Positions 33,653-35,416 of a stretch of 57,431 nucleotides of DNA are shown in pieces. Every line of letters starts with the position of its first letter. The first letter of the stretch is position 1. The DNA is from an uncultured Sphingomonas sp. (GTDB lineage Bacteria; Pseudomonadota; Alphaproteobacteria; Sphingomonadales; Sphingomonadaceae), in assembly GCF_937871615.1 (NCBI RefSeq), contig NZ_CALMPA010000001.1:1-57431 (forward strand), read 5' to 3'. Both the position numbers and the translations under genes were made by a program. The notes beneath the pieces were generated by a model, which made no database searches, was not told the origin of the DNA, and saw only the letters and a program-made list of their open reading frames with translations.

Positions 33653-34186
33653 ATGAAGATGTTTGAGTTGCAGCAATGGGCGGAAATGCACTGGAATGGC
33701 TTCGCGGAGATGCAAAGCGATCCCGATGTAATGGCTGATCTCGGCGGCCCGTTTACGAGGGATGCCAGCAGAGAGAAATTCGATCTATATCGCAACGCCT
33801 GGAAAACCGACGGCGTGTCACGATGGGCGGTAGTCGATTCCGCCGGAGCCTTTCTTGGCTATGCCGGGATAATGGCCCGCCACGACCGCGATCACCCGCT
33901 CGGCGTCCATCATGAAATCGGATGGAGATTCCGTCGTGATGCGTGGGGCAAGGGCTTGGCGACCGAAAGCGCGCGGCAGGCGCTGCATCACGCCTGGTCG
34001 ATCCTCGATGTACCCGAAATCGTCTCGTACACCGCCATGGATAACTTGCGGTCGCAGAATGTGATGCGTCGCCTGGACCTGAGAAGGGATCCGCGTCGTG
34101 ATTTTACTGCGCGCTATCCAAGAGGCGACTGGAGCGGTCTTGTCTGGGTTGCGGAGCGGCCGGTTGCGGGAGCAAACGCGCAGTAG
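33653..34186 (+). CDS. GNAT acetyltransferase of the RimJ/RimL type, probably acquired
   Basis: A 177-residue acetyltransferase (Acetyltransf_3). It begins FELQQWAEMHWNGFAEMQ; the acetyl-CoA motif is EIGWRFRRDAWGKGLATES; and SYTAMDNLRSQNVMRRLDL matches the usual N-x-x-S-x-x-v-x-x-x-L-G region, although the final Gly is replaced by Asp. Substrates in this family are ribosomal proteins, amino acids or drugs. GC bias at third positions is lower than in neighbours, as for the other GNAT gene at 8432. Confidence 0.85.
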   Translation: MKMFELQQWAEMHWNGFAEMQSDPDVMADLGGPFTRDASREKFDLYRNAWKTDGVSRWAVVDSAGAFLGYAGIMARHDRDHPLGVHHEIGWRFRRDAWGKGLATESARQALHHAWSILDVPEIVSYTAMDNLRSQNVMRRLDLRRDPRRDFTARYPRGDWSGLVWVAERPVAGANAQ

Positions 34187-34216
34187 CGAAAAAATGGCCT
34201 GCCCCCCCATCCGCGC

Positions 34217-34840
34217 CTACCCCATCCCGCGCAGCAGCAACTTCACCCGCCCGATCACATCGACCTCCGACGCCGGCACGGTGAGCGTCGCATAAGCGGA
34301 ATTGTCGCTGGCGATCGTCACGTCGTCGCCCGATCGCGCGGCGCGCTTGACGAGCAGATCGCCGTCGCGGCGCAGCACGACGATCGCGCCGGCGCGATCC
34401 AGCCGGCGATCGCCGCAATCGACCACCAGCCGGTCCCCGTCGAGAATCGTCGGCATCATGGAGTCTCCGCGCGCCGTGATGATCGAGGCGGTGCGCGCCG
34501 CGATCCCCGCCGCCGCCAGCGTTTCCGGGGCGAATCGCTGGGGGCGAAGGCGGTGCTCGCTCGCGGCATCGGCGCCCGCCCCCGCCGCCGCCTCCACCGC
34601 CAGCCACGGCACCTCGATCAATGTTTCGCGTGAGGCCGTTCCGCCGAGCAGCTTCTCATCCACGCCAAAGAAGGCCGCGAGCATCCGCCGATCGTCCTCC
34701 GCGAGCCGCCTGGGCGAGCCACGCCCGACATATTGCTGGAGATAGGCAAGGTTGCGCCCGAGCATCGCGGAGAGCGCCGCAAGGCTCGTGCCGCGCGCTT
34801 CGGCCAGCCGCTTCAGAGCCTCGCGAGGGGTCTCGGACAT
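34217..34840 (-). CDS. S24-family repressor with helix-turn-helix (LexA/CI-like)
   Basis: A 207-residue regulator. The N-terminal HTH (residues 4-62) includes LAALSAMLGRNLAYLQQYV. The C-terminal S24 peptidase domain has catalytic Ser in TARGDSMMPTI and Lys in DLLVKRAARSG. A candidate Ala-Gly cleavage site lies in AVEAAAGAGADAA. It should bind DNA and be inactivated by RecA-stimulated or spontaneous self-cleavage. A near-ideal promoter at 34847-34875 would start transcription at or near the ATG (leaderless), and a palindrome fills its spacer, implying autorepression. It is divergent from two small genes. It is not canonical LexA, which lacks this HTH type. Confidence 0.9.
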   Translation of the reverse strand: MSETPREALKRLAEARGTSLAALSAMLGRNLAYLQQYVGRGSPRRLAEDDRRMLAAFFGVDEKLLGGTASRETLIEVPWLAVEAAAGAGADAASEHRLRPQRFAPETLAAAGIAARTASIITARGDSMMPTILDGDRLVVDCGDRRLDRAGAIVVLRRDGDLLVKRAARSGDDVTIASDNSAYATLTVPASEVDVIGRVKLLLRGMG

Positions 34841-34846
34841 GGCCCT

Positions 34847-34875
34847 ATTCTACGCGCAGGAAATTTCCTGGACAA
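34847..34875 (-). promoter_or_regulatory. S24 gene promoter with palindromic operator in its spacer
   Basis: On the minus strand TTGTCC (34875-34870) and TAGAAT (34852-34847) are separated by exactly 17 bases. The perfect 14-base palindrome CAGGAAATTTCCTG occupies 34857-34870, inside the spacer. TAGAAT is followed by only 6 bases before the ATG, so the message may be leaderless, as for the lambda CI maintenance transcript. Confidence 0.65.
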
Positions 34876-34891
34876 GTTGGATTTATTGCGA

Positions 34892-34906
34892 GAACAAATG
34901 AAGAAC
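34892..34906 (+). promoter_or_regulatory. LexA-type box GAAC-N7-GAAC
   Basis: GAAC AAATGAA GAAC (34892-34906) reads GTTC-N7-GTTC on the other strand, the direct-repeat LexA box reported for alphaproteobacteria. It lies 26 bases before the small gene at 34932, a position from which LexA could repress it. Confidence 0.55.
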
Positions 34907-34931
34907 AAAAGGAATCGGGAGTCGAACCGGC

Positions 34932-35105
34932 ATGTCTCTGCTGACCAGGATTGATCGCTATCTTCGCCGCACCGGGATGCCGCCCACCACCTTCGGGCGC
35001 CGCGCCGTGAACGATCCCCGGCTGGTGGGCGACATGCGGCTCGGGCGCGTGCCCCGCCCCCGGCTTTGCGCGCGGGTCGAGGCCTTTATCGCGGAGGCGG
35101 AATGA
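34932..35105 (+). CDS. 57-residue Cro-like small protein, LexA-box operon
   Basis: Encodes 57 residues beginning MSLLTRIDRYLRRTG, with an HTH-like centre (PPTTFGRRAVNDPRLVGDM, residues 17-35) whose A-x-x-D-P-x-x-V pattern resembles small phage-type DNA-binding proteins. I associate near relatives with sphingomonads. The ATG at 34932 has GGGAG about 11 bases upstream. The stop overlaps the next start. Divergent placement opposite the S24 repressor recalls a CI/Cro pair. Function unproven. Confidence 0.65.
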   Translation: MSLLTRIDRYLRRTGMPPTTFGRRAVNDPRLVGDMRLGRVPRPRLCARVEAFIAEAE

Positions 35106-35416
35106 TGCGCGGGCCGGGCGTGGCGGCGCTGCTCGAACGCCGGCTGATCGCGGCGGCGCAGGCGGCGGGGACGGGAATCGCGATCACCGAAAGCCGCGCG
35201 ACCGAATGGCACAGCGCGACCTTTTCGGGGATGCGGCACGAGATCATGGCGGAGGCACCGCCCTGCCCCAGGCTCGATCGCTGGCTGGCCGAACTGGCCG
35301 AGGCGGATCTTCCGGTGGCGGGGCATCTCGTCGCGGATATCGCCGTTGCGGCGATAGAGCGCGATGCGGCGCGCACCCGCTTCCGGCTGGAGGCGCTGAC
35401 GGTCGCGAACGGGTGA
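35102..35416 (+). CDS. 104-residue unknown protein coupled to the small HTH gene
   Basis: Starts MMRGPGVAALLERRLIAAAQ at an ATGATG overlapping the previous stop. It is a soluble alpha-helical protein with a central element ESRATEWHSATFSGMRHE and a Leu/Ala-rich C-terminal half (LAELAEADLPVAGHLVADIAV). No catalytic motif or membrane segment is visible, and I do not recognise the family. Being translationally coupled behind a LexA-type box, it may act in DNA-damage response or be a relic of a phage lysogeny module. The stop is 10 bases from the convergent CinA-like gene. Confidence 0.6.
   Translation: MMRGPGVAALLERRLIAAAQAAGTGIAITESRATEWHSATFSGMRHEIMAEAPPCPRLDRWLAELAEADLPVAGHLVADIAVAAIERDAARTRFRLEALTVANG

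Follow-up and report, generated by a model that had tools for sequence, protein, structure and literature searches.

The window, meaning the whole 57,431-nucleotide stretch of Sphingomonas DNA analysed here, carries a divergent trio of genes. An S24 (LexA/CI-type) repressor gene of 207 codons on the reverse strand (34217..34840) faces two small genes on the forward strand. The first of these, sm57 (34932..35105), encodes a 57-aa Cro-like helix-turn-helix protein, and the second, p104 (35102..35416), encodes a 104-aa protein that is a shortened homologue of phage and GTA tail terminators. The start of p104 overlaps the stop of sm57, the two ORFs sharing four bases (ATGA). The same trio is found in the Sphingomonas parapaucimobilis record NZ_CP155750, where it is annotated as 'S24 family peptidase' and two 'hypothetical protein' entries. 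Using Pfam on the nine flanking ORFs, we obtained metabolic or housekeeping families for eight (acetyltransferase, MoCF/CinA-like, M24 peptidase, LssY_C, PQQ dehydrogenase, aminotransferase, glutamine synthetase and PhaC) and no match for the ninth; no phage genes were found among these nine by Pfam. The end of the acetyltransferase gene (window 34100-34201) recurs at 85% identity in another part of the genome (G000:C45:34894-34992).

The repressor matched Peptidase_S24 (PF00717) with 68 bits against a cut-off of 23.3 (E 7e-19), and its residues 7-201 matched phage repressors (PHROG 4, E 7e-27). Ser127, Lys165, Ala86 and Gly87 were invariant in 88 of 88 aligned copies, the window copy included, in agreement with the preliminary description of an S24 repressor with a Ser/Lys pair and an Ala-Gly cleavage site (Ala86-Gly87). 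Judged from its sequence, the protein thus has all the residues for LexA/CI-type self-cleavage, and cleavage itself is predicted. Two proteins of the window's own genome exceeded the Pfam cut-off, the locus repressor and LexA. Identity of the locus repressor with LexA was rejected, as it reached 32.2 bits with TIGR00498 against an equivalog cut-off of 110.95 and the genome has a separate lexA gene. Against phage records the protein gave 69 matches, none covering more than 80% of its length; in the best 20 of these 69, the alignment began at residue 126 or later.

The predicted promoter of the S24 gene consists of a -35 element, TTGTCC (34870..34875, reverse strand), a 17-base spacer and a -10 element, TAGAAT (34847..34852, reverse strand), which lies 6 bases before the ATG. 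This geometry, as first read from the window, was exact. We then measured the gap between the -10 and the start codon in the 57 genus loci with p104, of which 53 had a scorable -35. The start codon lay 5-7 bases past the -10 in 42 of the 53 and exactly 6 bases past it in 27; the -10 was the best match among three spacings, a choice that slightly favours it. Because this gap is kept at 5-7 bases, the promoter sequence fits a leaderless S24 message. The lambda repressor mRNA is leaderless.

The spacer contains the palindrome AGGAAATTTCCT (34858-34869). With a flanking C and G, one base on each side, it extends to CAGGAAATTTCCTG (34857..34870), a predicted S24 operator. Its conservation was examined in 63 genus loci, comprising 57 with p104 and 6 second copies; L011, L072 and L073 (no sm57 match) and the duplicates L074-L077 were left out. 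The AGGA/TCCT palindrome, the type reported inside the repressor-promoter spacer, was present in 59 of the 63, and the four loci missing it were all second copies without p104. With up to 2 mismatches, the form TAGGAAATTTCCTA occurred in the window's own genome at the locus and at one other site, which by reading lies inside a plasmid replication gene; there was no other intergenic site. Judged by this palindrome, a wide S24 regulon was therefore unsupported, the single further site being intragenic.

Adjoining the spacer palindrome is the best conserved promoter DNA element of the family, which the preliminary description had overlooked. Its family form, TCCTAGACAAGTAGGA, is a 16-bp inverted repeat, TCCTA-N6-TAGGA, lying across the repressor -35. 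The window copy, TCCTGGACAAGTTGGA (34866..34881), overlaps the S24 -35, has two mismatches to the family form and is the predicted main operator. To the genus set we added 69 further loci, one of them from the same genus. From these we excluded L094, L097, L106, L108, L157, L177 and L180 (S24 and/or sm57 missing in the fetched stretch, some through contig-end cuts), L161 (mis-paired) and L100 (same genus), which left 60 loci from 48 other genera. The element was exact in 51 of the 60, had one mismatch in 3 and had five or more in 6.

A LexA-type box, GAAC-N7-GAAC (34892..34906, forward strand), lies upstream of sm57, where it had been placed by the preliminary description. Of the 63 genus loci, 55 had it in exact form, and the window's own lexA gene is preceded by the same repeat in tandem. 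Since the palindrome is found in 59 of 63 loci and the box in 55 (shuffled expectation 0.17), the two motifs are not chance features. The box form agrees with GTTC-N7-GTTC, given as the alphaproteobacterial LexA motif in PMC12700426 and PMC7987155, and this motif, the test of membership in the alphaproteobacterial LexA regulon, is in the locus promoter. In other genera, however, the box was exact in just 19 of 60 loci (shuffled expectation 0.12). The LexA input, usual only in the window's genus, is therefore no central part of the switch. By reading, several other-genus loci have a further AGGA/TCCT-like repeat in place of the LexA box.

Between this box and sm57 lie two CcrM-type GANTC sites, GAATC (34912..34916) and GAGTC (34919..34923), which had also gone unremarked. 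Of the 63 genus loci, 60 had a GANTC site downstream of the core repeat, as did 51 of the 60 other-genus loci. Shuffled segments gave means of 8.7 and 12.1 loci, respectively (maxima 16 and 23 of 500), and 26 of 187 control regions of 65 bases upstream of other genes contained the site. In the genus, sites were first counted beyond the LexA box and so are not part of it, and the sites of the switch loci show all four bases at N. The longer form YGAKTCG, reported in PMC7987155 for GcrA-activated promoters, occurred in 43 of 60 other-genus and 34 of 63 genus loci against 4 of 187 controls, a contrast somewhat inflated by the greater length of the switch segments. The own genome gave a partial GcrA match (positions 93-152 of 155). 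Over the window as a whole (1-57431), there are 83 GANTC sites against 177 predicted by base composition, about half; such scarcity would fit selection on the site genome-wide.

These frequencies, far above the controls, speak against reading the locus as an ordinary two-input stress regulator, in which GANTC is incidental and p104 keeps its fold only, having taken up a new, unrelated job such as binding a host protein. We still regard that reading as a serious alternative, with somewhat less than even chances. It gains from the variable distance between GANTC and the sm57 start (6-42 bases in the genus loci) and from the more distant loci of the order described below, where 6 of the 12 stretches, each of 270 bases, contained GANTC, close to the estimated chance level. 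In addition, PMC7987155 notes that GANTC sites close to the LexA motifs of SOS genes are conserved with no apparent regulatory effect, and this weakens a regulatory step based on the site.

We next turned to the distribution of the genes. Among 61 genomes of the window's genus, 57 carried S24, sm57 and p104 as a trio. The S24 protein was matched in all 61 (E<=0.001), weakly and partially in G030 and G037. A profile search found p104 in two more genomes, G012 and G030, and among the 61 genomes it was absent from G007 (84% complete) and G037; in G030, neither an S24 nor an sm57 match was found within the 2.5 kb fetched. The gene order was kept among the fetched genus loci, though the cinA-like flank adjoins the trio in only the two closest relatives. 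In the family sample, p104 was present in 226 of 249 Sphingomonadaceae genomes and 89 of 96 genera, and it was single-copy in all but three carrier genomes. It was missing in four listed genomes of a genus of about 2 Mb, g299 (G466, G548, G609 and G655), and also in some very large genomes (G454 and G498); these absences are possibly losses.

In the one pair for which it was computed, the window's genome and its close relative G049, dN/dS was about 0.14 for p104, 0.13 for sm57 and 0.18 for the S24 gene, showing purifying selection on all three genes in that pair. The trio is a core and probably vertically kept unit of Sphingomonadaceae, more conserved than a single sequence could reveal. Of the features that the preliminary description had proposed to align across sphingomonads, gene order and palindrome were kept in the genus, and GAAC-N7-GAAC was usual there only. 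The ordinary flanking ORFs, the near-universal presence in the family and the dN/dS of about 0.13-0.18 in that pair together support a resident chromosomal unit and not a prophage, as had been suggested from the lack of phage structural genes nearby. The p104 gene matched one large Sphingomonas plasmid record; by this result and the S24 search of phage records, residence of the locus on plasmids or phages was unsupported.

Outside the family, p104 is rare. In a class sample it was found in 6 of 385 genomes, five of them from Sphingomonadaceae, and the sixth match is doubtful (E 1e-4, internal stops); this search scored the best 12 or fewer candidates per genome, so weak relatives beyond the family may escape it. 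Elsewhere in the class, 15 of 190 genomes had sm57. In loci L123 and L127 (also L118 and L119), from other alphaproteobacterial lineages, the neighbours of the S24-sm57 pair resemble genes for conjugation or phage functions, which suggests that the pair is an older mobile-element switch. Some pairs in these lineages have tandem sm57 copies. Within the genus, six genomes that also carry the full trio have a second S24-sm57 pair without p104 (L041, L042, L045, L059, L063 and L064); the downstream genes differ and in L059 form an ORF pair reading like a regulator and a helicase.

The structural model of sm57 is a four-helix helix-turn-helix protein (pLDDT 94.6). Its fold matches were 434 repressor and Cro entries with TM 0.65-0.72, at E 0.4 or worse for this short protein. 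The model is thus of the 434-Cro type, in line with the Cro-like protein of 57 residues first described, and scans with Pfam, PHROG, NCBIfam and PADLOC gave no usable match for it. A convincing -10 for the sm57 promoter was not found (mean match 2.7/6, versus 2.3/6 in shuffled sequence).

The p104 protein, modelled as helix-two strands-helix-two strands (pLDDT 93.9), had a single PDB match below E 0.001 in a fold search, chain 6tba_4A of the native RcGTA particle (E 6e-4, TM 0.47). Next came tail-end proteins such as the monocin cap and lambda gpU, interspersed with collagenase domains, and many matches in a viral structure library were tail completion proteins. By sequence, p104 had no Pfam match at the cut-off, chance-level PHROG matches and no usable match with NCBIfam or PADLOC, and none of 45 p104 homologues exceeded the gathering score of PF11367. 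Aligned with a profile of 18 GTA tail terminators, the p104 profile received an hhalign probability of 10.5%, a score that none of 300 column shuffles reached. As sole proof this direct match was too weak, and descent was settled by intermediates from the order.

Searching the order, we obtained p104-like matches from three other families (12 genomes, E 1e-5 to 1e-7), and a divergent S24 homologue (E<=5e-35) accompanied all 12. All five of these p104-like proteins that we scanned were PF11367 members above the cut-off (E 1e-7 to 4.5e-25), and four of the five also matched PHROG 176, 'tail terminator'. One intermediate, searched against PDB sequences, matched 6tba_4A (Rcc01690) at E 1e-5, which was also the leading chain in the fold search with p104. 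The p104 profile aligned with this intermediate at an hhalign probability of 97.1% (E 7e-11, 30% identity), and the set of intermediates aligned with the p104 set at 98.2%. In the shuffle control of the intermediates, the observed score of 73.8 compared with 130.9, 19.0, 18.0, 17.0 and 16.6 for the best five of 300 shuffles; the outlier was taken as an untraced artefact of shuffled gap columns, and because of it we rest the descent on the Pfam and PDB sequence matches. Sequence comparison thus places p104, through these intermediates, as a remote and shortened descendant of the PF11367 tail-terminator family. By reading, it seems to lack the stretch that tail terminators carry between helix 1 and strand 1. 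The 104-residue protein had been described as coupled and unknown; the coupling stands (ATGA overlap), but the protein is a remote tail-terminator homologue. That part of the tail-terminator sequence has been lost also speaks for the new p104 job assumed in the two-input reading above.

The order-level loci share some parts of the switch and not others. Their S24 proteins kept Ser in 12 of 12, Lys in 11 and Ala-Gly in 9, and an AGGA-N4-TCCT operator was readable in 8 of the 12 promoters. Neither an sm57 match nor a LexA box was found in any of the 12. In six (L259, L262:1030-1467, L265, L266, L268:964-1497 and L269:985-1371), by reading, a different ORF of 129-178 aa lies between the S24 gene and the tail-terminator homologue; these ORFs have a common C-terminal pattern, an acidic-basic run followed by GW-R--L or F, and the three that were scanned matched nothing in PHROG and nothing in Pfam below E 0.04. 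In the simplest history, an ancestor within the order would have had a captured tail-terminator gene under S24 control, and this gene would have been shortened in Sphingomonadaceae, where the Cro-like, LexA and GANTC parts were added.

Because p104 belongs to the tail-terminator lineage, the locus looks phage-derived, though no phage genes were found nearby. Its repressor, Cro-like gene and tail-terminator homologue are all phage-type, and several of the S24-sm57 pairs elsewhere in the class have surroundings that read like prophages or conjugative elements, so the locus could be a decayed prophage immunity region whose leftover tail gene was retained by chance. This explanation is already disfavoured and we consider it very improbable, given p104 in 89 of 96 genera, the invariant catalytic residues, the low dN/dS of all three genes in the one pair and a 16-bp promoter element that 51 of 60 loci carry in exact form.

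The GTA connection deserves separate consideration, as the GTA member of the p104 family is Rcc01690 and the own genome has a DUF2460 GTA gene. In Caulobacter, PMC9632790 and PMC11150451 describe RogA, an alphaproteobacterial HTH-S24 repressor that acts on the GTA activators gafYZ and so silences a phage-derived function. The S24 protein might then be the sphingomonad counterpart of RogA, and p104 an extra or altered GTA tail terminator produced on GTA induction, with the locus serving as a GTA control or accessory unit. The distribution of the genes makes this unlikely. DUF2460 was found in 166 of 249 family genomes against 226 of 249 for p104, and strict GTA dependence of p104 was rejected on this distribution; at least 60 genomes have p104 without DUF2460, and DUF2460 was present in 7 of the 20 listed among the 23 p104-less genomes. 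With up to 2 mismatches allowed, a second intergenic copy of the predicted operator was not found in the own genome, and the own GTA contig carries its own PF11367 gene. Furthermore, RogA is reported in PMC9632790 to be without the cleavage residues that are invariant in the locus S24 protein (88/88), and its target gafYZ (PMC9632790 and PMC11150451) differs from a divergent operon of a Cro-like and a tail-terminator gene. Compared with PF11367 tail terminators such as Rcc01690 (6TBA chain 4A), which it resembles in predicted fold and, via the intermediates, in sequence descent, p104 is shorter, lies outside any tail cluster, adjoins its own repressor and is single-copy nearly everywhere.

Taken together, the locus is probably a domesticated temperate-phage-type SOS immunity switch, core in Sphingomonadaceae, whose output is a shortened tail-terminator homologue. 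For its binding, cleavage, induction and effector steps we infer the following model. Produced from a leaderless message, the S24 protein of an undamaged cell would bind the inverted repeat across its own -35 and repress both its own gene and the divergent sm57-p104 operon. In this genus and some other genera, LexA would act as a second block on the operon. When DNA is damaged, RecA filaments would trigger Ala-Gly cleavage of S24 and LexA, and the operon would come on. Acting as a Cro, sm57 would keep the repressor gene off, and p104 would be the effector. Through GANTC, the replication-linked methylation state (CcrM/GcrA) may tune the operon. The role of p104 might be interference with prophage or GTA tails, a part in GTA, or a new job. 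A more specific proposal, that p104 is a damage-induced, cell-cycle-gated effector capping or mis-joining prophage or GTA tails, is speculative and probably wrong; if true, damage that wakes prophages or GTAs would also release p104, and the host would thereby limit particle release or set which cells release.

Lambda and 434 CI-Cro have a divergent pair of a self-cleaving repressor and a Cro-type protein with common operators. The locus resembles them in this layout and in the 434 fold of the sm57 model, but no prophage was found around it, its cargo is a single tail-terminator homologue, it has extra LexA and GANTC sites, and it has become fixed across a bacterial family. Among working systems, UmuDAb-DdrR of Acinetobacter comes nearest; it is described in the available part of PMC7273328 as a chromosomal LexA/UmuD-type repressor with a divergent small gene, damage-induced, kept genus-wide and not beyond, and with a palindrome overlapping the -35 of both promoters. 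The chromosomal repressor, divergent small gene, lineage-wide retention and palindrome over the -35 are common to both systems. In contrast, the same part of that paper portrays Acinetobacter as having no LexA and DdrR as a co-repressor, which by description sets it apart from sm57, and mentions no tail-terminator gene, LexA box or GANTC for UmuDAb-DdrR. We found no description of such a switch in sphingomonads among open-access full texts, judged by titles and abstract openings. As far as we found, the type of switch is known, while its output, wiring and family-wide fixation are undescribed.

These results provide a near-universal candidate damage switch for a whole, ecologically important bacterial family, and a hypothesis for three core genes recorded publicly as 'S24 family peptidase' or 'hypothetical protein'. 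They also trace a domestication trail, in which related families pair a like repressor and operator with full-length tail-terminator proteins, and at the Sphingomonadaceae end the terminator is shortened, a Cro-like gene lies in between, and LexA and GANTC sites have been added. Host use of captured virion parts and the rewiring of a phage switch into host circuits thereby become directly testable. An old piece of virus seems to have been turned into a permanent bacterial control circuit, apparently linked to DNA damage and perhaps also to the cell cycle.
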